DNA of 33,267 bases, taken from positions 1 to 33,267 of the forward strand of contig MNWR01000103.1 in the NCBI GenBank assembly GCA_001872725.1, written 5' to 3'. This document shows, piece by piece, positions 2,815 to 33,267 of the stretch. Positions within the stretch are counted from its first letter, which is position 1. The number at the start of each line of letters is the position of its first letter. The notes under the pieces are model-generated. The model saw nothing but the letters and a program-made list of their open reading frames with translations, made no database searches and was not told the origin of the DNA. Both the position numbers and the translations under genes were made by a program. This DNA comes from Proteobacteria bacterium CG1_02_64_396. GTDB taxonomy: Bacteria > Pseudomonadota > MNWR01 > CG1-02-64-396.

Positions 2815-3276
<462 letters not shown>

Positions 3277-6920: not shown

Positions 6921-6969
6921 TCGCGGTAACGGTGGCGCCGCCGGTAGGGCTCCACCCTTCCTCCCCTTT

Positions 6970-7149: not shown

Positions 7150-7246
7150 GGCGTTTGCCTTTGTATCTTGCAGTGGCGCCCGTTCAAACCGCCCCAGGGT
7201 GGATATGCTGCCCTTATTCGCCCTACTCCACCCCCCACGCCATGCC

Positions 7247-7810: not shown

Positions 7811-8733
7811 ACGTCGGCGGCGTCGCCCTGCCGGGTTTGCCCCACTACCGCTTCGACCGGATCACGGTGGCGCTCGGGATCAGCATCGTCCTGCATGCCA
7901 TCCTGCTGCTGGTGAAGCTGCACATGGACATGCCCCCCGAAAAAGCCCGCCCCCCCATGGAGGTCTCCTTCCTCGAAACCCCGCAGGCCAAGGTTGAAAA
8001 GAAGAGACTGGCCCCCGATGCGATGCACGGCATGCAGAATCAAGAGGCCTTCGCCCCCGAGGTGGCCAAGCAGGCGCAAAGCCAGACCACCGTTGAACAG
8101 AGCCCGGCCAACCAACCGATTCCCCTGCCCCGTACCCCCGACACGCCGCCCCCCCAACCGGCGCTCCCCTCTCGCCCCAACACCCCCCGCTCCCGCCCCC
8201 TGACCGAGGGGGAGATGCCCGAGCCCAAGGTGCAGGGGGAGCAGACCGATCACCCCGACGATCTGGCGCCGCGTACCCAAAAAACCAACCCCGACCAGCC
8301 CCCCTTGATGCTCTTCCCCGATTCGGGAACCCTGGCCCAGATCGACCGGGAAAACCGCATCGCCAGGGTGATCGACGAGCAACACCGGCGTCAGGACACC
8401 GTCTCGATCAACACCCGGGAATTCAAATACGCCAGCTACTTTTCAAAGATGAAAGACAAGGTCGAATACGTCTGGCAGTACCCCGAGGCGGCGCAGCGCC
8501 AGGGGCTGGAGGGACGACTGCTGATTAAGTTTTCGATTGGCAGGACCGGGGAGCTGGTGGGTGTGGAGGTGCTGCGCAGTTCAGGATCGGACGTTCTCGA
8601 CCGAGCCGCCATCGAGGCGCTGCGCAAGGGGGCACCCTATGCACCGCTGCCCGAGGAGTGGGAGCTCGATCAGCTCAACATCACCGCCACCTTCGAGTAC
8701 ATCATGCAGATGTTCGGCATCTCGGTTTACTGA
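7807..8733 (+). CDS. TonB family energy-transducing protein
   Basis: TonB-type proteins pass proton-motive force from ExbBD to outer-membrane receptors. The 308-aa protein has an N-terminal membrane anchor at about residues 19-37 (ALGISIVLHAILLLVKL, with the His found in TonB anchors). A long Pro-rich periplasmic linker (about 95-180) follows, and a C-terminal TonB domain (about 220-305) contains GLEGRLLIKFSIGRTGELV, VLRSSGSDVLDRAAIEAL and APYAPLPEEW. The start at 7807 overlaps the preceding stop (ATGA) and has GAGAGG upstream. No exbB/exbD or receptor is in the window, so its partner is unknown. Confidence 0.88.
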   Translation: MNVGGVALPGLPHYRFDRITVALGISIVLHAILLLVKLHMDMPPEKARPPMEVSFLETPQAKVEKKRLAPDAMHGMQNQEAFAPEVAKQAQSQTTVEQSPANQPIPLPRTPDTPPPQPALPSRPNTPRSRPLTEGEMPEPKVQGEQTDHPDDLAPRTQKTNPDQPPLMLFPDSGTLAQIDRENRIARVIDEQHRRQDTVSINTREFKYASYFSKMKDKVEYVWQYPEAAQRQGLEGRLLIKFSIGRTGELVGVEVLRSSGSDVLDRAAIEALRKGAPYAPLPEEWELDQLNITATFEYIMQMFGISVY

Positions 8734-10067
8734 TGGATGGCGCCCCTATGACGACCGAACTCCCCCATCGCATCGTCATCGTCGGCGGCGGCGCCGGTGG
8801 GCTCGAACTGGCCACCCGACTGGGCGACACCCTGGGCAAGCGGGGCAAGGCCTCGATCACCCTGGTCGACCTATCGCGCACCCATTTATGGAAACCGCTG
8901 CTGCACCAGGTGGCGGCGGGGAGCCTCGACCTGGGGGATCACGAGCTCGACTACCTGGCCCAGGCCCGCTGGCACCACTTCAATTTTCAGCTGGGACGAA
9001 TGGAGGGGCTCGACCGCCAGGCCAAAGAGATCTGGCTGGCGGCCACCTACGACGAAGAGGGGCGGCAGGTATTGCCAAGGCGCGCCATCGCCTTCGATAC
9101 CCTGATTCTGGCGGTCGGCAGCACCACCAACGACTTCGGCACCCCCGGCGCCGCCGAACACGCCATTTCGCTGGATCGCCCCGAGCAGGCCGCCACCTTC
9201 CACCGCCGTTTGGTCAACGCCTGTTTGCGGGCCAACACCCAAACCGAACCGCTGCGTCCCGAGCAGCTGCATGTGGCCATCATCGGCGCTGGAGCCACCG
9301 GGGTGGAGTTGGCCGCCGAGCTGCACAACACCACCCGGGAACTGCTCGCCTACGGTCTGGACCGCATCGACGCCGAGCGGGATATCCGCATCACCATCGT
9401 CGAGGCGGCCGAGCGCATCCTCCCCGCCCTGCCCCCCCGACTATCGCTGGCCGCCGAGGGGCTGCTGCGCCGCTTGGGGGTTCAAGTCATCACCCGCGAT
9501 CCGGTTTCGGCGGTCGACGCCTACGGGATCGACACCGCCTCGGGAGAGCGGGTCGACGCCGAGCTGGTGGTTTGGGCGGCGGGGATCAAGGCCCCCGACT
9601 TCTTGCGCGACATCGCGGGGCTCGAATCCAACCGTTTGGGGCAACTGGTGGTCGCGCCAACCCTACAAACGACCCGCGACCCCGACATCTTCGCGTTGGG
9701 CGACTGCGCCGCCTGCCCCTGGCCCGAACACGGCGGACTGATCCCCCCCCGAGCGCAGGCGGCCCACCAGCAAGCCAGCCATCTGGTCAAGGCGATGCGG
9801 TTGCGGCTGGCGGGACGACCGCTCAAACCCTTTCGCTACCGCGATTTCGGCTCATTGGTGTCGCTGGGAAAATACAGCACGGTGGGCAGTTTGATGGGGG
9901 GACTCAATACCGGGGCGCTCACGGTGGAGGGGCGATTCGCCCTATTGATGTACAAGTCGCTCTATAAGATGCACCTGCTGGCGCTGCACGGGCCGGTGCA
10001 GGTCTTCCTCGACACCCTGGCCCGGATCATCACCCGACGCGGGGAGCCAAGGGTGAAGCTGCATTAA
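8733..10067 (+). CDS. ndh: Type II NADH dehydrogenase (NAD(P)/FAD-dependent oxidoreductase)
   Basis: NDH-2 oxidises NADH and reduces quinone without pumping protons, bound at the inner face of the cytoplasmic membrane. It has the FAD Rossmann motif IVIVGGGAGGLELATRLG at the N-terminus, PLLHQVAAGSLD, the NAD motif VAIIGAGATGVELAAEL near residue 180, and the second FAD motif DIFALGDCAACP near 320. An amphipathic/hydrophobic C-terminus carries the usual quinone/membrane region. The start at 8733 uses TGATG overlap with the TonB-like stop; ATG 8748 is possible. The last 227 bp are duplicated at 11942-12168: this C-terminus may have been supplied by the inserted ATPase/DUF4276 module. Confidence 0.93.
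   Translation: MDGAPMTTELPHRIVIVGGGAGGLELATRLGDTLGKRGKASITLVDLSRTHLWKPLLHQVAAGSLDLGDHELDYLAQARWHHFNFQLGRMEGLDRQAKEIWLAATYDEEGRQVLPRRAIAFDTLILAVGSTTNDFGTPGAAEHAISLDRPEQAATFHRRLVNACLRANTQTEPLRPEQLHVAIIGAGATGVELAAELHNTTRELLAYGLDRIDAERDIRITIVEAAERILPALPPRLSLAAEGLLRRLGVQVITRDPVSAVDAYGIDTASGERVDAELVVWAAGIKAPDFLRDIAGLESNRLGQLVVAPTLQTTRDPDIFALGDCAACPWPEHGGLIPPRAQAAHQQASHLVKAMRLRLAGRPLKPFRYRDFGSLVSLGKYSTVGSLMGGLNTGALTVEGRFALLMYKSLYKMHLLALHGPVQVFLDTLARIITRRGEPRVKLH
9841..10067 (+). repeat. Direct repeat, left copy: 3' end of ndh (att-like)
   Basis: 227 bp at the 3' end of ndh are repeated at 11942-12168. In the first 94 bp the two copies differ at a single base (position 29). In the remaining 133 bp I count about 23 differences, most of them synonymous. 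The two copies bracket the ATPase and DUF4276 genes. Confidence 0.95.
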
Positions 10068-10156
10068 ACCTCACCGGTTGCGCAAAAACTTGAACAAACC
10101 CGGTTTTACGCTTGAATAGCGCCCATCCGACCACCCAACCCAAGGGCGTTGCCACG

Positions 10157-11251
10157 ATGAAACCTGTTTCCTGTTGGAATCAACTGTCGCGATTGAAACT
10201 CGATGGCTACAAGTCGATTGCGGCTTGCAATATCGAGATGGGTCGCTTGAACGTCTTGATCGGCGCCAACGGAGCGGGTAAATCCAACTTCATCGGTTTC
10301 TTTCGGCTGATCGTTCAAATATTGGACCAACAGCTCCAAACAACCGTGGGCGCATCGGGAGGGCCGGACGCCTTGCTCCATTTCGGCAGAAAAACGACCG
10401 AGGCGCTGCGCGCCGAGCTCTATTTCGGCAACAACGGCTACCGCTTCACCCTCGTGCCCACCCAAGACAACCGCATGATGTTCAAGCACGAGGCGTTGTG
10501 GTGGAACGTCACTGGCGAGTATTCCCCGCGTTCCGGCCACTTTGAGTCGTATACCGAAACGATGAGTGCGACCGCGATTTACGACTACGTCGTTCCCACC
10601 ATCCGTAGCTGGCGGCTCTATCACTTCCACGACACCGGCAGCTCGGCCCTCGTCAAACAAATCCACGGCATCAACGACAACGAATATCTGCGCGAGGATG
10701 CCCGCAACCTGGCCGCCTTTTTGTACCGGCTCCAACACCAGCACGAAGAACACTATCAACGCATCGTTAAAACCATCCGTCTGGTCGCCCCCTTCTTCGG
10801 CGATTTCCACCTGCGCCCCACCGTTGCCAATCCTGAGAAAATCCAGTTGGAATGGACCGAAAGGGGGCAAGACGTCCCCTTCACCGCCAGCGCCCTGTCC
10901 GACGGCACTTTGCGTTTCATCTGCCTGGCCACCGTACTGCTGCAACCCGAGGGGTTCATGCCCGCCTCGATTTTGATCGACGAGCCGGAACTGGGCCTTC
11001 ACCCGTTTGCCATTACGGTACTCGGCGGGTTGATGAAGGCGACGTCGCAGCGACATCAACTGATCGTCTCGACCCAATCGGTGGAGTTGGTCGACGAATT
11101 CGAAGCCGACGATCTGATCGTGGTCGACAAAGCGGGGGGCGCTTCGACCTTCACGCGCCCCGACCGGCAAGCCCTTGCTGAATGGCTGAAGGAATACAGT
11201 CTGGGCGAGGTATGGAAGAAGAACCTGCTGGGAGGGAGGCCCGCACGATGA
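10157..11251 (+). CDS. AAA ATPase of the OLD/ABC-type (AAA_21-like), first gene of a two-gene putative defence module
   Basis: The 364-aa protein has an ABC/SMC-type ATPase core. Features are RLKLDGYKSI, the Walker A GANGAGKSN (residues 36-44), an ABC-signature-like SALSDGTLRF, Walker B SILIDEPELGLHP, and the H-loop region LIVSTQSVELVDEF. There is no TOPRIM domain in this chain. ATG 10157 is preferred (AAGGG about 11 nt before); TTG 10112 would add 15 residues. It overlaps the DUF4276 gene by 4 nt. Such ATPases with a separate TOPRIM-like partner are known from anti-phage systems of the OLD/PARIS type, but I cannot name this pair. It sits between the two ndh 3'-end copies and looks more AT-rich than its neighbours, consistent with transfer. 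Confidence 0.85.
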   Translation: MKPVSCWNQLSRLKLDGYKSIAACNIEMGRLNVLIGANGAGKSNFIGFFRLIVQILDQQLQTTVGASGGPDALLHFGRKTTEALRAELYFGNNGYRFTLVPTQDNRMMFKHEALWWNVTGEYSPRSGHFESYTETMSATAIYDYVVPTIRSWRLYHFHDTGSSALVKQIHGINDNEYLREDARNLAAFLYRLQHQHEEHYQRIVKTIRLVAPFFGDFHLRPTVANPEKIQLEWTERGQDVPFTASALSDGTLRFICLATVLLQPEGFMPASILIDEPELGLHPFAITVLGGLMKATSQRHQLIVSTQSVELVDEFEADDLIVVDKAGGASTFTRPDRQALAEWLKEYSLGEVWKKNLLGGRPAR

Positions 11252-19466: not shown

Positions 19467-22042
19467 GTGCCCGAGGGTTTCGTCCGCCGGGTGGCGGGGG
19501 CGCTCCAGGGATCCTCGGGCCAGGGGTGTTTCGGGTAGCGACCGCGCAGATCCTTGCGTACTTCGCCGTAGCCATGATTCCAGAAACTGGGCAAATCCCG
19601 TGTGACCGCCACAGGACGGCGGGCGGGCGACAGCAGATGGATCGTCACCGCCACCCGCCCCCCCGCCACCGTCGGGGTTTGGCTGGCCCCGAACATCTCT
19701 TGCAGCTTCACCGCCAGTACCACCCCCTCGGCGGTGTAATCCAGGGCGATGCGCGACCCGGAGGGGACGGTGACATGGGTCGGGGCCAGTTCGTCGAGCT
19801 GACGCGCCAGATTCCAGAGGAGCAACCCCCGCAGCGCTTGGTCGAGGTCGATCTTTTTAAGGCGGTCGAGACGGCGCATCCCGGCGCACCAGGGGGCGAG
19901 CCAAACGTCAAGCCCCGCCAGCAGCGCCTCGTCGTCGACCGCAGGCCAGGGGTCGCCCAGCACCCGGTGCAGCAGGTCGAGCCGCCCCCGCAGCCGCTCG
20001 CTGTCGCGGTCCCAGGGTAGGCAGCCCAATCCCACCTCGCGGATGCCGACCATCAGGGCGGCGGCAATCGCCTCGGGGTCGACCTGCCCCTCCCCGCTCA
20101 AGGGGCGCTCTTCTAAAATCAGGCTGCCCAGACGGCGACTCCAGCGGGCGACCACCCCCTGCTGGCGGCTGTCCCAGGCGACCTCCTCCCCCTGCTCGAT
20201 GCGGTCGCCGCAAGCACGCTCCAGCCCCGCCCGGTCGAGCCTTGCCCCCAAGCGGATACGGGCCTGTTTGCGGTTGCCGTCCAGGTCGGCGGCAACGATC
20301 AGCTCGCTCCCCAGCCCCTCGTCCCGCTCGTCGAAAAACCCCTCGCCCCCCCCGGAGAGCCGATAGCGCGTGCGGCTGCCGGGGCGCAGCAGGCCGATGC
20401 GGTCGGGGTAGGCTAGGGCGAGGAGGAGGCCGACATTTTCGGCCAACGGCCTTTGCTTTTCTTCAGCCTCCGCACGTTCTTCGCGTGAAGCGGCTTTGGG
20501 GGGGGCTTCGCTGAGGTCGGCCAACCTCCGCATTTGCCGAGCGCTTTGCACCGCCTTGGCGGCCCGCCCCCGGTCCAGGCCGGGAATCTCGGGGTGGCGT
20601 TCGCTGCGCAGTCGCGGCAGCAGGGCGAGGTGGCGGGTCAGGTCGACCTCGCGGCTGCCGGGCAGCAGCAGCCCCCCCTCCTCCAGCACGGCGGCCAGGT
20701 CGCAGGCCGACGCCCCCAGCCCCAGAAAATCCCCCTTGAGGACCATATGGGCCAAACGGGGATGCAGCGGCAAACGGCTGGCCGCCGCGCCGTGGGGGGT
20801 GATGGCGCCGCTGGGGTCGAGCATTTCAAGCTGGCGCAACAGCTCGCGCGCTTGAGCCACCGCCCCGGCAGAGGGGGGATCGAGCAAGGCCAGATCGGCG
20901 GGGGAGCCGACCCCCCAGCGGGCCAGTTCGAGCATGAAACCGGTCAGATCGGCGCTTTGAATCTCGGGGGTGGCGAAGGGGGGGAGCCCCGCCTGGGCGC
21001 TGGCGTGCCACAGCCGGTAGCAGACCCCCGGCGCCATGCGACCCGCCCGCCCCTGCCGCTGCGCGCTGGCCGCCTGCGACACCGAAACGGTAACCAGCCG
21101 GGTCATGCCGCTGGCGGGGTCGAATCGGGCCTGGCGGGTCAGCCCGGCGTCGATCACCCCCCGCACCCCCTCGATGGTCAGCGAGGTTTCGGCAATCGCG
21201 GTGGCCAGCACCACCTTGCGGATGCCGGGGGGGGCCGGTTCGATGGCCCGTTGCTGCGCCTCGTCGGGGAGAGAGCCGTGCAGCGGCAGCACCTGCACCT
21301 GCTCGGGCAAGCCATCGTGCAGCGCCCGCTGCACGGCGCGGATTTCAGCCATCCCCGGCAGAAACACCAAGAGGCTCCCCGGCTCTTGGGCCAGCGCTCG
21401 GCGCACCGCCGTCGCCGTTGCTCCAGCCAGATCGGGCTTGCCCCAGCGGTCTTGGCCGGGGGGGCCAAGGTAGTGGGTTTCGACCGGGAAGGCGCGCCCC
21501 TGGCTGGTCAACACCGGCGCCCCCCCCATCAGGGCGGCGACCCGGTCGCCGTCCAGGGTCGCCGACATCACCAAAATTCGTAGGTCGGGACGCAGCGCCG
21601 ATTGCGATTCCAGCGCCAGCGCCAGCCCCAGGTCGGCATCGAGGGAGCGTTCGTGGAATTCATCAAAGAGGATGGCGGCCACCCCGCTCAATTCGGGGTC
21701 TTCTTGGATCATCCGGGTCAGGATCGATTCGGTGACCACCTCAATCCGGGTGATCCGGCTCACCTTGGTTTCAAGCCGGATGCGGTAGCCGACCGTCTGG
21801 CCGACCACCTCCCCCAGGGTTTGGGCCATGCGGCGGGCGGCAGCCCGCACCGCCAAGCGGCGCGGTTCGAGCATGAGGATCCTCCCCCCCGCCGCCCAAG
21901 GCTGATCGAGCAGCGCCAGGGGAACCCGGGTCGTCTTGCCCGCGCCGGGGGGGGCTTGCAACACCGCCACGGGGGCGGCGCGCAACACGGCGAGCAGTTC
22001 GGGGAGGAGCGATTCGATGGGCAGGGGGGAATGAGGGCTCAC
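19463..22042 (-). CDS. hrpB: ATP-dependent DEAH-type RNA helicase HrpB
   Basis: The 859-aa length is near that of HrpB. From the chosen start, the helicase core has Walker A QAPPGAGKTTR (29-39), EPRRLAVRAAA (Ia), DEFHERS (127-133; DEFH in place of DEAH as usual in HrpB), SATLDG (III) and QRQGRAGRMAPGVCYRLW (VI). Helicase-associated domains follow, and the HrpB C-terminal domain includes SFWNHGYGEVRKDLRGRYPKHPWPEDP. GTG 22042 is chosen: it overlaps the stop of the EAL gene (GTGA), and homology begins at this point, although the frame is open further upstream. It is unusual in lying between two c-di-GMP genes with 4-nt overlaps on both sides. Confidence 0.95.
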   Translation of the reverse strand: MSPHSPLPIESLLPELLAVLRAAPVAVLQAPPGAGKTTRVPLALLDQPWAAGGRILMLEPRRLAVRAAARRMAQTLGEVVGQTVGYRIRLETKVSRITRIEVVTESILTRMIQEDPELSGVAAILFDEFHERSLDADLGLALALESQSALRPDLRILVMSATLDGDRVAALMGGAPVLTSQGRAFPVETHYLGPPGQDRWGKPDLAGATATAVRRALAQEPGSLLVFLPGMAEIRAVQRALHDGLPEQVQVLPLHGSLPDEAQQRAIEPAPPGIRKVVLATAIAETSLTIEGVRGVIDAGLTRQARFDPASGMTRLVTVSVSQAASAQRQGRAGRMAPGVCYRLWHASAQAGLPPFATPEIQSADLTGFMLELARWGVGSPADLALLDPPSAGAVAQARELLRQLEMLDPSGAITPHGAAASRLPLHPRLAHMVLKGDFLGLGASACDLAAVLEEGGLLLPGSREVDLTRHLALLPRLRSERHPEIPGLDRGRAAKAVQSARQMRRLADLSEAPPKAASREERAEAEEKQRPLAENVGLLLALAYPDRIGLLRPGSRTRYRLSGGGEGFFDERDEGLGSELIVAADLDGNRKQARIRLGARLDRAGLERACGDRIEQGEEVAWDSRQQGVVARWSRRLGSLILEERPLSGEGQVDPEAIAAALMVGIREVGLGCLPWDRDSERLRGRLDLLHRVLGDPWPAVDDEALLAGLDVWLAPWCAGMRRLDRLKKIDLDQALRGLLLWNLARQLDELAPTHVTVPSGSRIALDYTAEGVVLAVKLQEMFGASQTPTVAGGRVAVTIHLLSPARRPVAVTRDLPSFWNHGYGEVRKDLRGRYPKHPWPEDPWSAPATRRTKPSGT

Positions 22043-24234
22043 GAGGGGGTCCGATGTGCGGCGAGCCAGGCCCCGAATGGCTCCTCTTGCAGCGGCTGGG
22101 AATAGAGCACCCCCTGCAAAAACCGGCACCCCTTGCCCAGCAGCCAATCGCGTTGGGGAGCGGTTTCGACCCCCTCGGCGTGGACTTCAAGCCCCAGGGC
22201 CTGCCCCATGGCGACGATGGCGGCCACCAGGGGGCGGTTGGGGTTGTCGCCCTCCAGTTGGGCGGTGAAAGAGCGGTCGATCTTCAAGACATCGAAGGGG
22301 TAGTGGCTCAGGTAGGCCAGGGATGAAAACCCGGTACCAAAGTCGTCGAGTGACAGCCGCACCCCCATCTTCTTAAGGGTGTCGAGCATATTTTTGGCCC
22401 GGACATCGTCTTGAATCAGCAGGCTTTCGGTGATTTCGAGTTCGAGCTGATCGGGGGCGATCCCCGAATGGGCCAGCGCCTGCTCCACCACCTCGATCAG
22501 ATCCTCCGAGGCGAACTGTCCCCCCGAGATGTTCACCGCCACCCGTAGCCCCGTGCCGCCCCCCTCTTGCCAGCGCCGCACCTGTTGGCAGGCCTCCATC
22601 AAGGCCCAGGCCCCCAAAGGGACGATGAGGCCACTCTCTTCGGCCAGCGGGATGAAACGGTCGGGCATCGTCAGCCCCGACGCCCCGTAATTCCAGCGCA
22701 TCAGCGCCTCGGCCCCGACGCAGCGCCCGGCTGCGTCGATCACCGGCTGGTAATGCAGGGCGATCTCCCCCCGCTCCAGCGCAAACCGCAGCCGCTCCCC
22801 CAGGCCGATCCGCTCCAGGGTCTCTTGATCCAAGGTGGCATCAAAGAGGTGAAACTCCCTGCCGCCCCGCTGTTTGACCCGGCGCAGCGCCGCCCCGGCG
22901 TTGCGGATCAAGCTTTCGGCATCGCGACCGTGTTCGGGGGCGACCGCGACCCCGACGCTGACCCCGATGGGGTAGGTGCGCCCCTGCCAGGTCAGGGGAG
23001 GCGCCAGGGCATCGAGGATGCGCTGCGCCAGATGTTCGGGGGCGGGGTGCTCGATCACCGGGCAGACCACCATGAACGCGTCACCGCCGGTACGGGCCAC
23101 CGTGTCGCCCTCGCGCACCACCGCCGACAACCGCTGGGCCACCTGAACGATCAGGGCGTCGCAGCCGGTGTGACCCACCACGTCGAGCATGCGGCGAAAG
23201 CGGTCCAGATCGACCACCATCACCGCCGTGCCGTGCCACTCCCGATGCCCCAGCTCCAGCGCCTGGGTCAACCGATCCAGGGCCAAATTGCGGTTGGGCA
23301 GTTGGGTCAGGGGGTCGTATTGGGCATGCCGCAGGATCTGCCGCTCCAAATCCTTACGCTGGGTGACATCCTCTTGAACCACCACGAAGTGGCTGATGGG
23401 GCCATCCCCCTCGCGGATCGGGGCGACGGTGGTGTGGCCCCAGTAGAGACCGCCCCCCTTGGTCCGCCCCGACAGTTCCCCCCGCCAATCCTCACCCGCG
23501 CAGGCGGTCTGCCACATCGTCTGGAAGTCCCCCTCCCCCGGCTGCGTTTGCAGCGCCTCCAAGCTCTGCCCCCGCAGCTCGTCCGGGCTATAGCCGCTGG
23601 TCATTTCAAAGCGGGGGTTGAGGTATTCGATCTTGCCCTGGGGGTCGGCGATGACCACGGCGCAGGGGCTGAGCTCCACGGCTTTAGAAAACAGCCGCAA
23701 ACGCTGCTCGGCGTCGCGGTGCAGGTTTTGTAGATGTTGCCGCTCCAGCCTTGAGGCGAGCAGGCTGGCGACCACCTCAAGGTAGGCCCGCTGCCCCGCA
23801 TCGGGGATGCGCCCCCCCTCCTGGCCAAAACCGGCGCAGTACAGGGCGCCAAGGGGCCCCTTAGAGGTGCGGACGGGGGTAACCGCGAGGGTACGCAGCC
23901 CCAGGGGGGCGACAAGGTGGGGGTCGATGCGGGGATCGCTGGCGGCATCGGCCACCAGTACCGGTTCATTGGCCGAGAGGGCCGCTTTCAGCAGGGGGAG
24001 GCCACCGATGGGAGGCTGAACGGGCTCGGCGCGGATCGCCTCGGCATACGTTCCGCAGCTACCAAGCCACTCGACCGCGTCGGGGTCGTTCGGGTCGGGC
24101 CGATAGAGCCAGATAGAGGAAAAACCGCACTCCGACGCGATGCCCTGGTGGGCGGCGGCCAGTATGGCATCCAGCCCTTGCGCCCGATCCAACGCGTGGA
24201 TGAGTTCTTGAAGCGTTCGTTGGGGGATTGCCAT
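22039..24234 (-). CDS. GAF-PAS-GGDEF(degenerate)-EAL protein, probable c-di-GMP phosphodiesterase
   Basis: The 731-aa cytosolic protein has GAF (about 1-170), PAS (about 185-305), GGDEF (about 310-470) and EAL (about 485-725) domains. The cyclase motif is GGDAF in place of GGDEF (near residue 383), and the upstream metal/substrate region reads DLDRFRRMLDVVGHTGCD, lacking the usual I-N-D. Cyclase activity is therefore unlikely, and a GTP-sensing role is possible. The EAL domain keeps its key residues: EALMRW, VNISGGQF, LEITES, LDDFGTGFSS, LKIDRSF, AEGVET and LQGVLYSQP. It should cleave c-di-GMP to pGpG. It is first in the operon with hrpB and the GGDEF gene. Start ATG 24234 has AGAAGAG-like purines upstream (CTTCTGGTT on the plus strand). 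Confidence 0.93.
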   Translation of the reverse strand: MAIPQRTLQELIHALDRAQGLDAILAAAHQGIASECGFSSIWLYRPDPNDPDAVEWLGSCGTYAEAIRAEPVQPPIGGLPLLKAALSANEPVLVADAASDPRIDPHLVAPLGLRTLAVTPVRTSKGPLGALYCAGFGQEGGRIPDAGQRAYLEVVASLLASRLERQHLQNLHRDAEQRLRLFSKAVELSPCAVVIADPQGKIEYLNPRFEMTSGYSPDELRGQSLEALQTQPGEGDFQTMWQTACAGEDWRGELSGRTKGGGLYWGHTTVAPIREGDGPISHFVVVQEDVTQRKDLERQILRHAQYDPLTQLPNRNLALDRLTQALELGHREWHGTAVMVVDLDRFRRMLDVVGHTGCDALIVQVAQRLSAVVREGDTVARTGGDAFMVVCPVIEHPAPEHLAQRILDALAPPLTWQGRTYPIGVSVGVAVAPEHGRDAESLIRNAGAALRRVKQRGGREFHLFDATLDQETLERIGLGERLRFALERGEIALHYQPVIDAAGRCVGAEALMRWNYGASGLTMPDRFIPLAEESGLIVPLGAWALMEACQQVRRWQEGGGTGLRVAVNISGGQFASEDLIEVVEQALAHSGIAPDQLELEITESLLIQDDVRAKNMLDTLKKMGVRLSLDDFGTGFSSLAYLSHYPFDVLKIDRSFTAQLEGDNPNRPLVAAIVAMGQALGLEVHAEGVETAPQRDWLLGKGCRFLQGVLYSQPLQEEPFGAWLAAHRTPS

Positions 24235-24676: not shown

Positions 24677-26881
24677 CTATGTGGGGCCGATCCGCCCCCG
24701 CCACCACGCCGCCAAGTCGGTTGCTGGCATCGGCGTGGCGAACAGGAACCCCTGCATCAGGGTGCAGCCCCGCTGACGCAACCAATCGCGCTGCGCCTCG
24801 GTTTCGACCCCCTCCCCCACCACCGTCAGCCCCAACGCCCGCCCCATGGCGATGATCGCCCCGACCAACGCCTGGCTTTCACTTTCGTGCAGGTCGCGGA
24901 TGAAGGCCTGGTCGATCTTGAGCTGATCGAAGGGGAAGCGTTTGAGGTACGACAACGACGAATACCCGGTGCCGAAGTCGTCCAGCGCCGCCCGCACCCC
25001 CATTGCCTTCAGGCGGCCCAGCACCGAGCGCACCAGCGGGGCGTCGGTCATCAACAGGGTTTCGGTGATTTCGAGTTCGAGCAGGTCGGGGTCGATGGCG
25101 GCGGCGTTCAAGACCCGCTGCACCGTTTCGGGCAGATTGCCCGCGGCGAACTGGCGCCACGACACGTTGACCGAGACCCGAAAAGGGGGCAGCCCCTGGG
25201 TTTGCCAGACGGCGATGTCGCGACAGGCTTGCTCCAGCGCCCAGGTTCCCAGTGGCAGAATCAAACCGGTCTCTTCGGCCAGGGGGATGAAGCGTTCTGG
25301 CTGAACCGCCCCCAAATCGGGGGAGGTCCAACGCATCAGTGCCTCAGCCCCAACCGGAATCCCCTGGGCATCGACAAGGGGTTGGTAATGCAGGGCGATC
25401 TCCCCCCGCTCCTGGGCATGGCGCAGCAGCCCCTCCATGTCGAGCCGCTCTTTGGCCCGGCGATTCATCTCGGGCTGAAAGAAGCGAATCGTGTTGCCCC
25501 CCTGCTCCTTGGCGCCGTACATGGCGGCGTCGGCGTTGCGCAGCAGGGTGTGGGGATCCAAGCCGTCGGCGGGGGCCAGGGTGATTCCGAGGCTGGCGGT
25601 GACGAAGACCTCCCGCCCCTCGATCAAAAAGGGGCGACCCAGCGCCCGCAGCACCTTGGCGGCAACCCGCTCGGCGGCGGTGGCCTCGTAAACCCCGGAG
25701 AGGATGAGCAGAAATTCATCCCCCCCCAGCCGCGCCACCGTGTCCCCCTCCCACACCGCCTCGCGCAGACACTGGGCCACCTGCACCAGCAGCTCATCGC
25801 CCCGCCCGTGGCCGAGGGTGTCGTTGATGGTTTTGAAGCGATCCAGGTCGAGGATCGCCACCGCGACCCCCCCCTTGTGGCGATGGGCCAGGTTCAGCGC
25901 CTGATCGAGCCGGTCGATGGCGAGCACCCGGTTGGGCAGGTCGGTCAGGGTGTCGAACTGGCTTTGGCGCAGCAGCCGCTCCTCGAAGCTTTTGCGCTCG
26001 GTGATGTCTTCAATCAGCCAAAGCCAGTGACTCAGCGTCCCCCCCTCCCTCCGCACCGGCGACAGGGTGACCGCCCCCCAAACAAACCCGCCCCTCCCCT
26101 TGGTCAAGTGCAACTCCCCCCGCCACTCCACCCCCTGATCGAGGGCCCGACGCACCCCCTTGAGCGCCTCGGGGGCGCTGCGACCCGATTCCCAATCGAG
26201 GGGGCTTTCATCTTCGGCGGGGGCGGTGTGGCCGAGCAGCGTGGCCAGGGGGGGATTAAGGTATTCGACCGAGCCGTCGGCCCCGGCAACGGCGACCGCC
26301 ACCGGGCTTTGCTCCACCGCTTGAAACAACAGCGCCAGACGGGCCTCGCGCTGGGAGCGCTCTTGCAGCAGCCGCACCCGATCCAGGGTGATGGCGATGT
26401 GGCTGGCCACCGCATCGAGAAAGTCGAGTTGCTCCCGGCTGGGCACCATCACCCCCTCGTCGCCGAATGAGCCGGTCCCCAGGGTGCCCAAATTGCGGTC
26501 GAACAACCGGATGGGGACGTTGACGATGGTGCGATTGCCCAGGGCGGCAACGATCTCTTTGTTGGTGCGAGGATCGGTTCGGGCATCCTCGACCAGGACG
26601 ATCCCCTTGCCCGAGACGACCTCCTCCAAAAAGGGATCCCCTTCGATGTGCAAGATCGGCACCTCGGTGGCGATCGCATTGGCGGCGGAGCCCTGAATGG
26701 TGATGAGGGTGTACTGACTGGGGGGGGTGAAAAGGTAGACCCAGGTGGTCTGGTAACCGACCACCTCACGCACCGTATCGCGGGCGGCGGCCAACACGTC
26801 GGCGTAGGTCTCGGCCAATTCGAGCCGCTTGCTCAAGGCGAGCAGGGCGGTGAGCTGGGCTTTGGAGGGGGGTGGGGTCAT
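24677..26881 (-). CDS. GAF-PAS-GGDEF-EAL protein, c-di-GMP cyclase/phosphodiesterase
   Basis: The 734-aa cytosolic protein has GAF (about 5-170), PAS (about 185-300), GGDEF (about 310-475) and EAL (about 490-730) domains. The cyclase site is intact (LDLDRFKTINDTLGHGRGDE and RLGGDEF near residue 387). The I-site RxxD is replaced by WEGD, so no product inhibition is expected there. The EAL site is intact (EALMRW, VNVSWRQF, LEITET, LDDFGTGYSS, LKIDQAF, GEGVET, MQGFLFATP). It is a close relative of the protein at 22039-24234 in domain order and wording. ATG 26881 (MTPPPSKAQ) is where family similarity begins; the frame is open further upstream but overlaps the divergent gene. The Shine-Dalgarno is weak. 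Confidence 0.93.
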   Translation of the reverse strand: MTPPPSKAQLTALLALSKRLELAETYADVLAAARDTVREVVGYQTTWVYLFTPPSQYTLITIQGSAANAIATEVPILHIEGDPFLEEVVSGKGIVLVEDARTDPRTNKEIVAALGNRTIVNVPIRLFDRNLGTLGTGSFGDEGVMVPSREQLDFLDAVASHIAITLDRVRLLQERSQREARLALLFQAVEQSPVAVAVAGADGSVEYLNPPLATLLGHTAPAEDESPLDWESGRSAPEALKGVRRALDQGVEWRGELHLTKGRGGFVWGAVTLSPVRREGGTLSHWLWLIEDITERKSFEERLLRQSQFDTLTDLPNRVLAIDRLDQALNLAHRHKGGVAVAILDLDRFKTINDTLGHGRGDELLVQVAQCLREAVWEGDTVARLGGDEFLLILSGVYEATAAERVAAKVLRALGRPFLIEGREVFVTASLGITLAPADGLDPHTLLRNADAAMYGAKEQGGNTIRFFQPEMNRRAKERLDMEGLLRHAQERGEIALHYQPLVDAQGIPVGAEALMRWTSPDLGAVQPERFIPLAEETGLILPLGTWALEQACRDIAVWQTQGLPPFRVSVNVSWRQFAAGNLPETVQRVLNAAAIDPDLLELEITETLLMTDAPLVRSVLGRLKAMGVRAALDDFGTGYSSLSYLKRFPFDQLKIDQAFIRDLHESESQALVGAIIAMGRALGLTVVGEGVETEAQRDWLRQRGCTLMQGFLFATPMPATDLAAWWRGRIGPT

Positions 26882-26950
26882 GGCGGCAACGCTCGCGGGG
26901 AAGGGGGCCCCTATGTACAAAGGGTGGCCCACCTTGGCCGACAGATGACG

Positions 26951-26968
26951 TTGGCGCCAAACGTTTGG
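26951..26968. promoter_or_regulatory. Overlapping palindromes in the divergent intergenic region
   Basis: TTGGCGCCAA (26951-26960) and CCAAACGTTTGG (26957-26968) are perfect palindromes sharing CCAA. They lie in the 202-bp gap between the divergent GGDEF-EAL gene and the first of the tandem membrane-protein genes, about 70 nt before the former's start and 115 nt before the latter's. This is a candidate operator; no regulator is known. Confidence 0.3.
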
Positions 26969-27083
26969 AACTGCAACCGAAAGGTCGCCGATCCCTTTTG
27001 GAGACGCACCAAGTGTCGACAACCTCGCCCCGATACCGCCACCATGACTGCATGGAATTGTGATCCGGAACCCAGGAGGCTCC

Positions 27084-28952
27084 ATGGAACGTCTGCGCGT
27101 CCCCGCCGCACTTGCCGTCGTCGCGATCGCCCTGTGCGGCTTACTGGTCGCGGCCAGCCTCTGGACCGCCCACGAAATCGCCGCCACCCCCGCCCCCACC
27201 CATGTTGCCGTTACCCCCGAGGGGGAGCTGGCGATCTTGGTGGGCAACCGGCTTTTCATCGGCCGCGAGCAGCTACGCGCCATCGTCGACCTGGCCCCCA
27301 TGGGAGCCGACACCGATCCGGGCGGCATCCATTTTTTACCCAGTGGCGAGCTGCTGTTGCACCAGCGCCAGGCGACCCCCTGGTGGCACCGTTGGCGGCT
27401 GCCTAGCGGCAACAATGTTGCGCCAGGAAACGGCTCCCTGGCCCGCTGCGACCTCCCCGTTCACACCTGTCGAGCCTTTGCCCCCAACGTGGCTCTGCCC
27501 GACGCCCCCTTGTGGTTCGAGAACGATCCACACGACGAAATCCTTTATCTCTCCTCACCCGAGGCCTGGTACATCGCGGCCATCGACGGTACTGGCCACG
27601 TAACGCCCCTACAGGACCAAACCCCTTTCGTCGAGGCGACACTCCATCGCCAAGGGGGAATGCTGCTCGACCCCCATCTCGATACACGTTTCCCCCTCCC
27701 TCTGACCATCGCCGAAGAGGGTGATCCAAGTTTGGAAACCATCCACACACGGCACCACCGGGAGGGAAGCAACGTGATCTGGATTTTGCGTGCAGTCCAG
27801 ACCGATGCAGCCCGGTGGGTGTTGACCAAAGGGGAGGGAATGCGGGGTGGGCCGGTGCTGCGTCTGGAGCGGAATGGGAACCGCCTGAGCATGCTCGAAT
27901 TGCCCCAAAGGAGCGATCCGGTCGATCTGACGCTGTACGACGACCAGATTGTCGTGGTCGATGCCGGTTTGCGCCGGGTCGCACGTTTCGATCTCGATGG
28001 CCATCGGCTTCCCGATCTGAATTGGCCCGAACTCGATGCACGCTTGAGCCAGGCCAGGGAACGGGCCGAGACGCTGAACGAACGGGCTGAAAAGATCCCG
28101 CTGGGATTTGTGGTACTGATGCTGGGGTTGATGGTGTGGGGGGCAAGGCAAGCCACCCATGGTCGGGGCAATGAGGCTTCCACCTCGAACCGGGAAGGAG
28201 CTCCCGCCCCAGGTCGGAACAGGGTGCTCTGGGTCGCGGTGGCCACCCTGGCGGGGCTGGTGGTGGTCGCAGGATTGCTGCTGCTGGCGGTACAGGATCT
28301 GCACATCGAGATCATGAGCCCCCTGGGGGTGGCGATGGGGCTGGTCCTGCTTTTGGGATTGTTGCTCTTCGCCTGGATGACGACGTTGCAAGGCACACCT
28401 TCTCGCCCACCTACCCCAGCCCCACAACAGCCTGCACCTCTACCGGATCTCGACGACCCCAACATTGCGTGGATTCAGACCAATCCGACGGTACAACGGC
28501 TGCGTGAAACCTTACTGGTCACCCTCCTCCTTGCCGCCGCCGGCTTGCCCTGGTTGTGGCGCCATTTCATCGGCGATCCGATGCCGGACGAAACGAATGC
28601 CTTTTTGATGCTGAGTCTCACGGGGGCGTTGATGCCTTTCTTTCTGGGCAACCGGCATCGCCACCGGATTGGCATCAAGGGCAACACGATTCTTCTGGAC
28701 CAAGGAAAAAAAAACGCCGCGTCGCCCTTACGGCAGATCCGTTTCAACGGCTCCTCCATCCAAGTCGACAACCTCCATACCCAACTGGGGCAATACAACG
28801 CCCATGACATCGACCGGCATCTGCGCCCCAAACTCTCCCTGGCCATTTGGGTTCCCTATTGGGAGCTGCAAAAGCTATGGTGGCGCGACGAGGGGCTGTG
28901 GCTGACGGTGGGGTTGATCGTCGTGGTGATCGCGGGAATCAAGTTGATTTGA
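27084..28952 (+). CDS. Propeller/multi-TM membrane protein of unknown family, paralog A
   Basis: Not recognised. The 622-aa protein has an N-terminal TM anchor (about 8-28) and then about 300 residues that look like a periplasmic NHL/SMP-30-type beta-propeller (HVAVTPEGELAILVGNRLF, IHFLPSGELLL, EILYLSSPEA). Cys122 and Cys129 form the CX6C pair shared by its two neighbours. Five hydrophobic segments follow (about 338-358, 382-405, 411-432, 468-490, 503-520). A roughly 80-residue polar module (HRIGIKGNTILLDQG, IDRHLRPKLSL, ELQKLWWRDEG) comes next, then a last TM helix. Counting helices puts the propeller outside and the polar module inside the cell; the module looks like a bacterial PH-type domain (inference). 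The start at 27084 has AGGAGG 6 nt upstream. It is first of a tandem array. Confidence 0.85.
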   Translation: MERLRVPAALAVVAIALCGLLVAASLWTAHEIAATPAPTHVAVTPEGELAILVGNRLFIGREQLRAIVDLAPMGADTDPGGIHFLPSGELLLHQRQATPWWHRWRLPSGNNVAPGNGSLARCDLPVHTCRAFAPNVALPDAPLWFENDPHDEILYLSSPEAWYIAAIDGTGHVTPLQDQTPFVEATLHRQGGMLLDPHLDTRFPLPLTIAEEGDPSLETIHTRHHREGSNVIWILRAVQTDAARWVLTKGEGMRGGPVLRLERNGNRLSMLELPQRSDPVDLTLYDDQIVVVDAGLRRVARFDLDGHRLPDLNWPELDARLSQARERAETLNERAEKIPLGFVVLMLGLMVWGARQATHGRGNEASTSNREGAPAPGRNRVLWVAVATLAGLVVVAGLLLLAVQDLHIEIMSPLGVAMGLVLLLGLLLFAWMTTLQGTPSRPPTPAPQQPAPLPDLDDPNIAWIQTNPTVQRLRETLLVTLLLAAAGLPWLWRHFIGDPMPDETNAFLMLSLTGALMPFFLGNRHRHRIGIKGNTILLDQGKKNAASPLRQIRFNGSSIQVDNLHTQLGQYNAHDIDRHLRPKLSLAIWVPYWELQKLWWRDEGLWLTVGLIVVVIAGIKLI

Positions 28953-28997
28953 ATATTCAAGCGGCCCACCAGCGCCTCTTAAGATCAAGGAGTCATC

Positions 28998-31199
28998 ATG
29001 GATCAAATCAAAGTCACCCCCGCCCTGGCCGCCGTCGTCATCGCCTTTTCGCTGCTGCTCTTCGGCCTGAAGTTCTGGGCCGACGGTGAGGCCTTCGGCA
29101 CCGACGCCCCGACCAACATCGTGGTCACCCCCGCAGGGGATCTGGCGGTGGTGGTGGGGCACGAAATGCTGGTCGGCACCCCCGACAAGGTGGAGACGAT
29201 CTACGACCTGAGCGACTTCGGCGCCCCTTTCGTGTTGGGCGATGTGCGCTTCTTCCCCAATGGCGAACTGCTCATCCGCCAGGGGGAAGACGTGCGCTCG
29301 TTCATGCACAACCTGCGCGCCTACGGGCGGGACGACCACAGGGGAGAGGCCGTCCTCGAAGAGGTCGGGACGTTGGCACGCTGCAATCTGACCACCAAGG
29401 ATTGCCGCCCCGTCGCCCCGAACCTGCGCTTCCCCACCTCCCCCTTTTGGGTCGAGATCGACCCTAAAGACGAAACCCTCTTTGTTTCGGCCCCCGAAGA
29501 GCACCGCATCTTCAAATATGCCCCCGACGGGACGCTGTTGGCGATGCAGGATCGGGGGCTGGCCTTCCCCAACCAGCTGCTGCTGCGCGATGGCAAGCTC
29601 TACAACGCCAACACCAACTACAACGAGATCGCCATCCTCGATCCGTCGACCCAGGGGTTCGGCAAAAAGCTGCAAACGGTGTCGGTCAAAGGGCTGGTCC
29701 CCACGCTGGACGATTTTACCGGGGTGATCTGGACCCTGGGGTTGGCGCCGGTAGGGGATGAATGGTGGGTGCTGGTCAAAGGAGACGGTATGGTGGGGGG
29801 GCCGATCCTGCGCTTCGACCAAGACTGGAAATTCCTCGCCCCCATCGAGCTGCCCGAACGAAGCGACACCATGGCCCTGACAGTATTCGGGGATCGGGTG
29901 GTGGTGGCCGACATCGAGCTGCGTCGGGTGCTGCAATTCCGCCCCGATGGGGCTGCGCTTCCCGATCTTGCCTGGCCGGAGCTGACCGCCCGGCTCAAGG
30001 CGGCCCAGGCGCGTAACGCCTTCTACAACATGGTCGGCAGCAACATCCTCTTTGGTTTTGTGCTGCTCTTTTTGGGGTTGCTGCTCTGGGCCATAAAACA
30101 GAAACGGGCGATGGAGGCAGCGGCGGGGGCAGTGGGAACCGTTGGCCCCCCCCAGCCCATCCCCGCCCTTGCCGAAAAGGTCACCCTTGGGTCCAGCATT
30201 TGGCTGGCTTTGGTGGTCGTGATTGCCTGGATGATCGGGGTTTTGAATCTCATCGGTTTGTTGACGGTTCTGTTTGTGTACTTCCTGATCGATCAATCCA
30301 GCACCATCTTGAACTGGGTGTCCGCTCTTGCTGCCCTTCGAGTCGTTTTCTTCTTTTGGCTTGGTTCCAAAGTGCTCAAGCGGATTGAAAAACGGCAGCA
30401 ACAACCTACCCCCCCTGCGCCCCGTGCCACCATCGAAGACCCTAGGTCTCGGCAAGGGCGCGCTCTGGGCCACTTTGGTCAAAAAGCCCAAGGGTACTTC
30501 CTGGCATTTGCCGTTCTCGGTCTGACCATCTTGGCGGCAACTCGGCTCCCCGATCTGGGGGAAAACGGCCCCTATTTCATCGTGGGGGGGGCCATTGTTT
30601 CCCTGCTCATCTTCTGGATGACCCATCGCAGAAGCCACCACTTGGCGTCCAAAGACCAGACCGCAGCCCACCCCCAACCCGGCACGACCGGTTTTTATTG
30701 GATCGGCATCGAAACTTGGCAAAGGCGCCTGCGTTTCGGCGTCGCAACGGGATTATTTCTGGTATGGGCGTGGATTTGGGCCTGGCTAGGCATCGTCGAG
30801 GTAACCCGTACGACCCCCGTCGGCCACCACGAAATCCCCCTGATGGCTCTGGCCATCTCAACCTTGATTTTTGCCACGCACTTCTTCAAAACCGCCCTCT
30901 ATCGCCTCGGCGTCGGCGACGGCCAGGTGGTCATGCTTCACCCCTGGAACCGCACCTCGGTCGCCGACTTCGACCAAATCATTTTGAGCGATCAGGCGAT
31001 CCAGGTGGGGGACGGCCACATCCACCTGGGGCTCTTCCCCTGGCAAGAGATCGCCCGCCACCTGATGCCCAAAATGGCCCGCGCCAAACGGGTCCCCCAC
31101 CGTGAAATGCGGCGGCTGTGGTGGCGCGACAACGGGGTGGAGGTGATGTTGATGCTCGCCCTGGGGCTGGGCGGATTGCTGCTGTTCGCGGTGTATTGA
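28998..31199 (+). CDS. Propeller/multi-TM membrane protein of unknown family, paralog B
   Basis: The 733-aa protein is clearly related to the genes on either side. It has a TM anchor (about 8-27) and a propeller-like region to about 340 (NIVVTPAGDLAVVVGHEML, VRFFPNGELLIRQ, ETLFVSAPEEHRI, EWWVLVKGDGMVGGPILRF, DLAWPEL), with Cys129/Cys136 as the shared CX6C pair. Then come TM segments near 347-365, 395-420, 430-455, 495-515, 525-540, 575-600 and 610-630. The cytosolic module (YRLGVGDGQVVMLHP, AIQVGDGHIHLGLFPW, IARHLMPKM, HREMRRLWWRDNG) and a last TM finish it. It is longer than paralog A through extra TM helices in the middle. AAGGAG lies upstream of ATG 28998, 45 nt after paralog A. Confidence 0.85.
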   Translation: MDQIKVTPALAAVVIAFSLLLFGLKFWADGEAFGTDAPTNIVVTPAGDLAVVVGHEMLVGTPDKVETIYDLSDFGAPFVLGDVRFFPNGELLIRQGEDVRSFMHNLRAYGRDDHRGEAVLEEVGTLARCNLTTKDCRPVAPNLRFPTSPFWVEIDPKDETLFVSAPEEHRIFKYAPDGTLLAMQDRGLAFPNQLLLRDGKLYNANTNYNEIAILDPSTQGFGKKLQTVSVKGLVPTLDDFTGVIWTLGLAPVGDEWWVLVKGDGMVGGPILRFDQDWKFLAPIELPERSDTMALTVFGDRVVVADIELRRVLQFRPDGAALPDLAWPELTARLKAAQARNAFYNMVGSNILFGFVLLFLGLLLWAIKQKRAMEAAAGAVGTVGPPQPIPALAEKVTLGSSIWLALVVVIAWMIGVLNLIGLLTVLFVYFLIDQSSTILNWVSALAALRVVFFFWLGSKVLKRIEKRQQQPTPPAPRATIEDPRSRQGRALGHFGQKAQGYFLAFAVLGLTILAATRLPDLGENGPYFIVGGAIVSLLIFWMTHRRSHHLASKDQTAAHPQPGTTGFYWIGIETWQRRLRFGVATGLFLVWAWIWAWLGIVEVTRTTPVGHHEIPLMALAISTLIFATHFFKTALYRLGVGDGQVVMLHPWNRTSVADFDQIILSDQAIQVGDGHIHLGLFPWQEIARHLMPKMARAKRVPHREMRRLWWRDNGVEVMLMLALGLGGLLLFAVY

Positions 31200-31200
31200 G

Positions 31201-33243
31201 ATGTCGACAACATTCGTCACCCGAGAGCTGCCATTCTCATCCGGGTTCGGCATAACGGTGGTAATCGTCTGCCTGCTGCTGTTCGGAGCTCCCTTCTGGG
31301 CCAGCGATTCCCTCGACCACACCGCCACCCCGACCCAGGTGATGACCACCCCGGATGGGGCGCTGGCGGTGGTGCTCGGTCACGAGCTGCTGCTCGGCAG
31401 GGATCGGGTCGACACCCTCATCGATCTGGAGGAGCTTGGTCTCTACAGCTCGCCGCCCGGCATGACCTTTTTGCCCGACGGCGATTTACTGGTCCGTCCG
31501 GGAACCGGTTCCATCGCCCGCTGCGACCTGACGAGTCGCGTCTGCCGCCCCGTTGCGGGCAACCTGCCCCTCACCACCGACCCTTGCTGGATCGACCGCG
31601 ACAGCGACGGCACCCTCTACCTCTCCTCCCCCGACGCGGAGCGCATCCTGGCGGTCGATCTCTCCGGGCAATACCGGCGGCTGACCGATCAATCCCCGTT
31701 CGTCCCCCGGCAGTTTCTACTCAAGGAGTGGGGGCTGCTTGACCCTGCAAGCGGCGACTGGACCGCACTCCCTCCGTACCTGAGCACCGGGGCCTTCGCC
31801 TTGCAGCCCCTGCCCAGCGACGGGGGTTCGCGTCCCCTGTGGGTGTTGCAAACGCTCAAGGTGGATGGGGGATGGTGGGTGCTGTTCAAGGGGCGGGACA
31901 AACTCGGGGGGACGATCCTGCGTTTCGACGAAGACTGGAGCCGCCCCAAGGCCATCATCCTCTCCGCCCCGGTGGCGATGACCTTGTTCGAGGGGCGGGT
32001 GGTGGTCGCCGACATCGGCCGCCGTCAGGTGCTGCAATTCCTGCCCAACGGCCACCCCTTGCCCGATCTGGCTTGGCCCGAGTTGCAAGTACGGCAGGCC
32101 GCTGCCGACGACCAATCCGAAAGCCTTCACAAGCTGATCTCGGTACTCCCATTCGGGGTGATCGGGATCGTCATCACCCTGCTGTTCATCGCCCTGGCCT
32201 CGCCCGAATTGCCCAAGGGGTTGTTCGATTCACCCCCTTCGCGATGGGCCCTTGAGGAACAAAGGAACCGGGATGACTCCCAGCTCTTCGTCATCGGTGT
32301 GGTCGCCCTGATTTTCTTCCCTCTCATGCTCTTCCTGCTCACCCGCTTCGTTGTTGTGCCCCCCCCGATTGCCCTTGCCCTGGTCGCCCTGCCCATTTTG
32401 GTGGGGATGGGGGTGCTGCTGTATCGCTACAAGCACGCCCAGAACCCCGCCACTCCCAACCCAGAACCCAACATGGCCCAGGTCTATACCCAGATTCAGG
32501 GCTTCTATTATTCGGCCTTCGGAACAGGGCTGTTGCTGGTGCTGGCGGGGGCGGCGTGGTGGGCGCAGGTATGGCAGGCGATGGCGTGGTTGGGGGCGGG
32601 CGCCGCGTTGCTGCTGGTTCCGACCGTGGCGTTGCGTCTGCGTCTGGGCACCATCGCCGCCGATCTGCCCCCTGTTGCCGTGGAACCCGAAGAACCTACC
32701 GATCCCCGCCTCGCCGATCCATCCATCGTTTGGATCGAATTGCCCCGTTGGGAGCGGGAGATACGGCAGGCGAGCAACGGACTGTATTTCGTCTATTTTT
32801 TTCTGGTCTATCTGATCGCCAAACATGCATTCGGCTTTCGTTGGGGCGACATCCCCGGCATCGAATGGATTCTGTTTTTTGTGCTCATCCCCGCCGCATT
32901 GCTCATCGGCTCCCTCATCGGCGCCCGCCACGACCACCGCATCGGCGTCCGGGGACGCACCGTTTTACTCCACCAAAACGGCACGATAACCGAGGCCCCC
33001 ATCGAACAGGTCTTCAGCAGCGGTCGGGCCATTCTGGTCGGCGATCTGCGTACCCCCTTGGACCTCTACCCCCCCGCGCAGATCGAGCGACACCTCCTTC
33101 CCCTGCTCGCTCGCGCCGCGCCCATCGCCCACCGCGAACTACAAAAACGGTGGTTCAACGAGCAATGGTCCATTTGGCTGCTTATTGGCTTTTGTTGGCT
33201 GGTAGGGATTGTCATGTTCTGGTTGGATGGGGGGATTCAATGA
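31201..33243 (+). CDS. Propeller/multi-TM membrane protein of unknown family, paralog C
   Basis: The 680-aa protein is the third member of the array. It has a TM anchor (about 15-34) and a propeller-like region (QVMTTPDGALAVVLGHELLL, MTFLPDGDLLVRPG, GTLYLSSPDAERILAVD, GWWVLFKGRDKLGGTILRF, DLAWPEL), with Cys108/Cys115 as the shared CX6C pair. TM helices lie near 315-337, 358-380, 384-402, 440-465, 468-480, 528-545 and 558-578. A cytosolic module (HRIGVRGRTVLLHQNG, IERHLLPLL, HRELQKRWF) and a last TM follow. It starts one base after the stop of paralog B, so the two are surely co-transcribed. Its own Shine-Dalgarno is not obvious, which suggests translational coupling. Its stop overlaps a fourth start codon. 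Confidence 0.85.
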   Translation: MSTTFVTRELPFSSGFGITVVIVCLLLFGAPFWASDSLDHTATPTQVMTTPDGALAVVLGHELLLGRDRVDTLIDLEELGLYSSPPGMTFLPDGDLLVRPGTGSIARCDLTSRVCRPVAGNLPLTTDPCWIDRDSDGTLYLSSPDAERILAVDLSGQYRRLTDQSPFVPRQFLLKEWGLLDPASGDWTALPPYLSTGAFALQPLPSDGGSRPLWVLQTLKVDGGWWVLFKGRDKLGGTILRFDEDWSRPKAIILSAPVAMTLFEGRVVVADIGRRQVLQFLPNGHPLPDLAWPELQVRQAAADDQSESLHKLISVLPFGVIGIVITLLFIALASPELPKGLFDSPPSRWALEEQRNRDDSQLFVIGVVALIFFPLMLFLLTRFVVVPPPIALALVALPILVGMGVLLYRYKHAQNPATPNPEPNMAQVYTQIQGFYYSAFGTGLLLVLAGAAWWAQVWQAMAWLGAGAALLLVPTVALRLRLGTIAADLPPVAVEPEEPTDPRLADPSIVWIELPRWEREIRQASNGLYFVYFFLVYLIAKHAFGFRWGDIPGIEWILFFVLIPAALLIGSLIGARHDHRIGVRGRTVLLHQNGTITEAPIEQVFSSGRAILVGDLRTPLDLYPPAQIERHLLPLLARAAPIAHRELQKRWFNEQWSIWLLIGFCWLVGIVMFWLDGGIQ

Positions 33244-33267
33244 GGAAATCCAGCACGACTCCAATCA
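33240..33267 (+). CDS. Start of a fourth gene in the array (partial)
   Basis: ATG 33240-33242 overlaps the stop of paralog C (ATGA) and is followed by open codons MRKSSTTPI up to the window edge. The overlap is the same kind seen between many real genes in this window. Nine residues are too few to tell whether it is another paralog. Confidence 0.45.

Follow-up and report, generated by a model that had tools for sequence, protein, structure and literature searches.

What are the three large membrane proteins encoded side by side on a contig of Proteobacteria bacterium CG1_02_64_396, and why are there three of them? The window analysed here is a stretch of 33,267 nucleotides (contig C103, positions 1-33267, in a genome of 2.94 Mb and 109 contigs), which closes with the genes that we call A, B and C. 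A sequence-only reading had given them a propeller-like periplasmic region, a variable number of transmembrane (TM) helices and a PH-like module, and had suggested that they are subunits of one complex. Their anatomy is now near certain: a first TM helix (TM1) leads into a six-bladed NHL-type propeller, and after TM2 come one to three TM hairpins, then a compact beta-sheet module ahead of a last TM helix. When function is included, our reading is tentative and falls somewhat short of an even chance: membrane receptors or scaffolds, with B close to the ancestral form and A and C diverged from it. The genes and their parts are as follows.

27084-28952, forward strand: gene A, 622 aa; TM1, propeller, TM2, two TM hairpins, C-terminal module, last TM helix; 7 TM helices predicted
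28998-31199, forward strand: gene B, 733 aa; order of parts as in gene A; three TM hairpins, 9 TM helices
31201-33243, forward strand: gene C, 680 aa; order of parts as in gene A; three TM hairpins, 9 TM helices
27189-28037, forward strand: propeller region of gene A, approximate, from alignment to B
29103-29972, forward strand: six-bladed NHL-type propeller of gene B, from AlphaFold2 and Foldseek
31330-32100, forward strand: propeller region of gene C, approximate, from alignment to B
27447-27470, forward strand: C-x6-C pair of gene A, C122/C129, invariant in the alignment
29382-29405, forward strand: C-x6-C pair of gene B, C129/C136, invariant; alignment and AlphaFold
31519-31542, forward strand: C-x6-C pair of gene C, C107/C114, invariant in the alignment
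28647-28895, forward strand: C-terminal module of gene A
30885-31136, forward strand: C-terminal module of gene B, on evidence that includes AlphaFold2
32920-33168, forward strand: C-terminal module of gene C; folded alone, five strands and two helices, predicted local distance difference test (pLDDT) 87

The three proteins align with one another over most of their lengths (BLASTP E 2e-64 for A/B, 9e-73 for B/C and 4e-59 for A/C), with 32%, 30% and 30% identity, respectively, in the best local alignments; pairwise identity is 37-42% in the propellers and 23-25% in the middle TM parts. By this similarity, which is far beyond chance, A, B and C are diverged full-length paralogs that share one order of parts, as the sequence-only reading had stated. 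Its three consecutive open reading frames (ORFs) and their packing were likewise reproduced: A and B are 45 nt apart, B and C 1 nt, and an ATG at 33240 overlaps the stop codon of C by 4 nt. The starts of A and B are supported by strong ribosome-binding sites upstream (AGGAGG at 27074-27079 and AAGGAG at 28987); duplication of the gene has given what is probably an operon. Rfam gave no match in the window.

The propeller, earlier proposed from sequence, was found by AlphaFold in B with confidence. It spans residues 38-322, and we read the DSSP list as six groups of four strands, the last group one strand short. Its best PDB matches in Foldseek are the NHL domain of Thin (E 4.7e-10), virginiamycin B lyase and the NHL domain of Brat, with NHL domain matches ranging from E 5e-10 to 1e-8; a profile search also matched NHL chains in the PDB, while a viral fold library returned generic propellers only. 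Pfam NHL (PF01436) is found at E <= 0.01 in 14 of 26 aligned family members and exceeds the gathering cut-off (20 bits) in the homologs from Gilvimarinus and PL25a (31.5 and 22.1 bits); A, B and C themselves have no Pfam NHL match. A conserved stretch, ADTNHH, resembles the NHL repeat motif. The only invariant columns of the 26-member alignment are two cysteines, usually spaced by six residues (four or five in two members), and the pair recurs in eight further homologs outside that alignment. The model of B puts C129 and C136 on adjacent strands of blade 2, which a disulfide between them probably clips. As judged from the alignment, this cysteine pair in blade 2, usually C-x6-C, is the signature of the family.

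Three lines of evidence, hydropathy, AlphaFold and charge, give one order of parts, from TM1 through propeller, TM2, TM hairpins and module to the last TM helix. Hydropathy with manual assignment gives 7 TM helices in A, 9 in B, 9 in C and 7 in a further copy on contig C47 (see below), so that the number of middle helices varies, as had been noticed, and does so in pairs. The AlphaFold model of B, built from a 26-row alignment, has nine long helices, which fits this count; its pLDDT is mostly >90 in the propeller, about 40-65 in the middle helices and about 90 in the C-terminal module. Since the paralogs differ by whole hairpins, the module stays on the same side of the membrane. An origin of the extra hairpins by duplication of the core hairpin was rejected, as no similarity is detectable. 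The propeller loop is net acidic (32 K/R vs 46 D/E in gene B), the module loop is net basic in A, B, C and the C47 copy, and the outer hairpin loops are short with few K/R. In one genus a highly charged extension of 430-490 aa precedes TM1, where a cytosolic location is expected. From this charge distribution the N-terminus is predicted to lie inside, the propeller in the periplasm and the module in the cytosol.

The short module ahead of the last TM helix is present in the model of B; the label 'PH-like' once given to it draws a weak structural hint from one PH domain. For the module of C, folded alone from 24 sequences, the highest-probability structural match listed is the Avo1 PH domain (PDB 3ulc; probability 0.75, TM-score 0.48, E 0.24), which is not significant. 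The PH fold is a seven-stranded barrel capped by a C-terminal helix, whereas five strands are predicted here, and Pfam PH has no match in A, B, C or the 26 family members. A PH-like module is a lead from the structural model.

Is the architecture confined to this genome? A first GTDB pattern scan with the paralog alignment returned no relatives, and a whole-genome profile search with the paralogs found one full-length homolog among 399 genomes of the phylum, in Gilvimarinus agarilyticus. With this homolog added, matches appeared in 9 of 245 genomes of the Gilvimarinus order. A GTDB scan gave 22 loci (Gilvimarinus, Alcanivorax, Alloalcanivorax, Thioalkalivibrio, Pseudomonas sp., Woeseia, Acidovorax and uncultured lineages), and the final five loci match parts of the propeller only, which leaves about 17 family members; a phylum-wide scan with the family profile gave very few matches. 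The comparison of copy number proposed by the sequence-only reading found the array only here: elsewhere the gene is single, with one match in each of 10 of the 369 gammaproteobacterial genomes (three candidates were scored per genome, enough to reveal a second copy). The commonest form of the homologs has 5 TM helices and one hairpin, and the Woeseia protein ends shortly after TM2. A, B and C match the family profile, in which they are themselves included, at E <= 4.5e-144 and have the family layout: TM1, propeller with the blade-2 cysteine pair, TM2, hairpin, G-led beta module and TM helix.

For A, B and C nothing rises above the cut-off in Pfam, and all NCBIfam scores are far below it; among the 26 members NCBIfam gives one weak ScyF match, in one member. 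The PADLOC defence models match neither A, B or C nor a Gilvimarinus homolog, an IMG/VR viral scan and a plasmid tblastn found no relatives, and a literature search found nothing on such a family. Taken by these searches, this is an uncatalogued family, present as a single gene in scattered Gammaproteobacteria, and no curated Pfam or NCBIfam model covers its whole architecture. The earlier statement that no described family looks like this therefore stands for curated families, but the architecture is not unique to the array, because a single-copy family exists elsewhere.

Further copies lie on two other contigs of the same genome.

C47 (L009) 8391-10286, reverse strand: intact copy, 631 aa, in a second cluster of the family
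C47 (L009) 10309-11100, reverse strand: C-terminal fragment, 263 aa, adjoining an IS66-type element
C47 (L009) about 8170-8349, reverse strand: C-terminal remnant, 60% identical to gene B, in the second cluster
C81 (L010) 5549-7198, forward strand: divergent single copy, 549 aa, one TM hairpin, directly after a 364-aa membrane ORF without Pfam match

Phylogeny by maximum likelihood unites A, B, C and the C47 copy in a single clade (support 94/91), and the long branch of the C81 copy stands next to it (support 90/97). Because the four group together, the array is a lineage-specific expansion, and multiplication was seen only in this genome. Part of the expansion has decayed, as the genome holds truncated copies and a C-terminal remnant. 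Contig C47 also carries two similar putative lipoproteins of about 225 aa each (275-967 and 2925-3596, both forward).

The copies have diverged unequally. Of ten propeller columns that are invariant in 17 single-copy relatives, B keeps eight, A six, C four, the C47 copy four and the C81 copy six. Position 192 is N in all 17 relatives and in B, L in A, R in C and Q in the C47 copy; A and B retain D290, which C and the C47 copy have lost; and in the FPN stretch B alone of these four keeps PN (PL in A, PR in C, VQ in the C47 copy). Among the four, B is the best keeper of the invariant residues of the single-copy relatives. These losses fit a divergence of A and C from the ancestral role and do not separate new function from relaxed constraint. 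The loss of invariant residues in A, C and the C47 copy, while B keeps most of them, speaks against pure redundancy; the truncated copies and the remnant speak against all copies having been kept as subunits.

A possible fourth start follows gene C.

33240-33267, forward strand: possible fourth gene, start codon and 8 codons (MRKSSTTPI), cut by a 10-N scaffold gap

Contig C103 continues past this gap, at which the window stops. Beyond it stand the repeat end CTGTCCAGTTTTTGGGGTCCACTTCA, about 60 nt of AT-rich sequence and then the end of an IS66-type insertion sequence (IS), which begins at about 33382 of C103 (L031 from about 6383). IS66-type copies also occur on contigs C94, C47, C52, C15, C80, C82, C1 and C38; the element's right end is present in eight places, chiefly where contigs end, and five left/right pairs are matched by 8-bp target duplications. 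The duplication AAATTATG pairs the IS copy that lies at C103's right end with contig C94, whose ORFs look unlike the propeller family, and the fourth gene is therefore unproven. A fourth array gene may have been interrupted here, but with only 28 nt before the gap and IS ends beyond it, the fourth copy suspected earlier is not demonstrated. Joining C103 and C47 into one long array was rejected, as the C103 duplication matches C94 and C47 shows CAAATGCA; the partner of CAAATGCA was not found. The repeat end CTGTCCAGTTTTTGGGGTCCACTTCA, 26 nt long, resembles an IS3-type terminus; it occurs at 26 places in the assembly, mostly near contig ends, and is probably a main cause of assembly breaks. On C94 (L058), near the contig end, an ORF at 121-1140 (forward) looks by eye like an integron-type integrase.

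What might such proteins do? NHL propellers are binders of proteins or ligands, and it is for this reason, together with the predicted topology and the lack of a conserved enzyme-type glutamate, that we favour a receptor or scaffold of the inner membrane. The propeller would serve as a periplasmic docking or ligand-binding domain, which the membrane part would link to the cytosolic module. B has held on to the majority of ancestral positions in the propeller; the divergence of A and C would suit copies specialised as B's partners, or as receptors with ligands of their own. The mechanism is supported no further than the anatomy. Several results weigh against the receptor or scaffold reading: the module has neither a PDB structural match at E <= 0.001 nor a PDB sequence match, a known cytosolic output domain was not found, and the middle TM part of the model of B is of low confidence. 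Nor was a conserved gene neighbourhood found across lineages; what is shared is common only to close relatives, and no pathway or signalling partner is indicated. By eye, the neighbours are two divergent Ser/Thr kinase-like genes in one lineage, a hisF-like gene in Alcanivorax, an oxidoreductase-like gene in Gilvimarinus and a GGDEF-EAL-like protein beside the array.

Alternatively, A, B and C could form an obligate hetero-oligomeric inner-membrane complex, in which B binds the ligand by its propeller and A and C are structural or regulatory. The genes are co-directional and tightly spaced, the module and cysteine pair are kept in all copies, and the distribution of N192 and D290 among the copies would suit such a division of labour. 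However, one gene is all that relatives carry, which means that the ancestral protein functions without paralogs, and copies also lie outside the array (C47, C81); we regard the obligate complex as doubtful. A fuller version, in which a hetero-oligomeric receptor of three diverged paralogs, one keeping the ancestral binding face and with differing hairpin numbers, would have evolved by tandem duplication of a single-gene family, we consider unlikely.

The array could also be the product of tandem duplication that was largely neutral, with the copies of one membrane protein gene in part decaying and sharing no division of labour. The C47 cluster, in which a C-terminal fragment by an IS66-type element and a remnant accompany one intact copy, would agree with this, as would the IS ends just past the possible fourth gene. 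Yet A, B and C have stayed open over 622-733 codons at about 30% identity, with cysteine pair, hairpins, module and last TM helix intact, and neutral duplication seems to us quite unlikely.

An enzyme is less probable again. A membrane-anchored hydrolase or lyase of the SMP-30, lactonase or virginiamycin B lyase type would be in keeping with Foldseek matches that include virginiamycin B lyase and lactonase RPA3624, with weak Pfam SGL matches in 5 of the 26 members (best E 9.1e-06) and with N192 and D290, which are invariant in the single-copy members compared. The SMP-30 metal site is Glu-Asn-Asp, and the glutamate is needed. In the single-copy members, however, no glutamate is conserved at >= 70%, so that this site was not found. 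The top Foldseek match is an NHL domain and ADTNHH resembles the NHL repeat motif. Pfam SGL (PF08450) has no match in A, B or C, and the homolog scores shown are 11.8-11.9 bits against a cut-off of 26.3; we judge an enzyme improbable. A transporter or lipid-handling machine, with the variable hairpins (one to three) as the path and the propeller as accessory, is about as improbable: it would be favoured by MFS_1, matched weakly in two members, and by ABC2, matched in one, but the MFS_1 score falls below the cut-off where one is shown (19.5 vs 33.4 bits), the commonest form has only 5 TM helices and one hairpin, and the extra hairpins are not detectably similar between paralogs.

Among known propellers, Thin, Brat, TRIM2/3 and TRIM71 share the propeller fold and NHL repeat motif with the array family; they are soluble eukaryotic domains, whereas the array proteins hold theirs between TM1 and TM2, with hairpins, beta module and last TM helix after it, and the blade-2 cysteine pair is a mark of the array family. 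PknD, a bacterial Ser/Thr kinase with an extracellular NHL-type sensor propeller, also anchors a propeller outside the cytosol, and a sensor analogy is possible; unlike PknD, the family has no kinase domain, its propeller is N-terminal and its membrane part has several TM helices. The propellers of SMP-30/gluconolactonase, virginiamycin B lyase and lactonase are alike in fold, with weak SGL matches, but lack the membrane architecture, and the array family lacks the conserved glutamate. The PDB entries 7djm and 7djj ('quenching protein'), which we take to be SOQ1 lumenal domains, have a fold-similar propeller in a non-cytosolic compartment; the thioredoxin-like domain that SOQ1 carries was not found in the array family.

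The homologs with the long N-terminal extension come from four genomes of one genus.

L063 8327-11224, reverse strand: protein with N-terminal extension of 430-490 aa
L064 8216-11317, reverse strand: likewise
L065 7049-10045, forward strand: likewise
L066 6749-9808, forward strand: likewise

The extension is coiled-coil-like, its first 75 residues are conserved, and a Pfam scan of two of the proteins gave no match within the extension. A shorter homolog whose propeller has RC-x6-C (L111 1102-2118, reverse) occurs in a different family of the phylum (f5), where it adjoins a protein that looks HD-GYP-like by eye. In the window, two GAF/PAS-GGDEF-EAL-like proteins, also recognised by eye, lie next to each other on the strand opposite gene A (22039-24234 and 24677-27415, reverse; the start of the second is uncertain).

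These results define a membrane protein family with a clear signature, thinly spread in Gammaproteobacteria and not covered as a whole by Pfam or NCBIfam. Its function can be tested through the single-copy homologs in named strains of Gilvimarinus, Alcanivorax and Thioalkalivibrio, and the diverged copies of the array form a natural series that reveals which parts of the protein are constrained.

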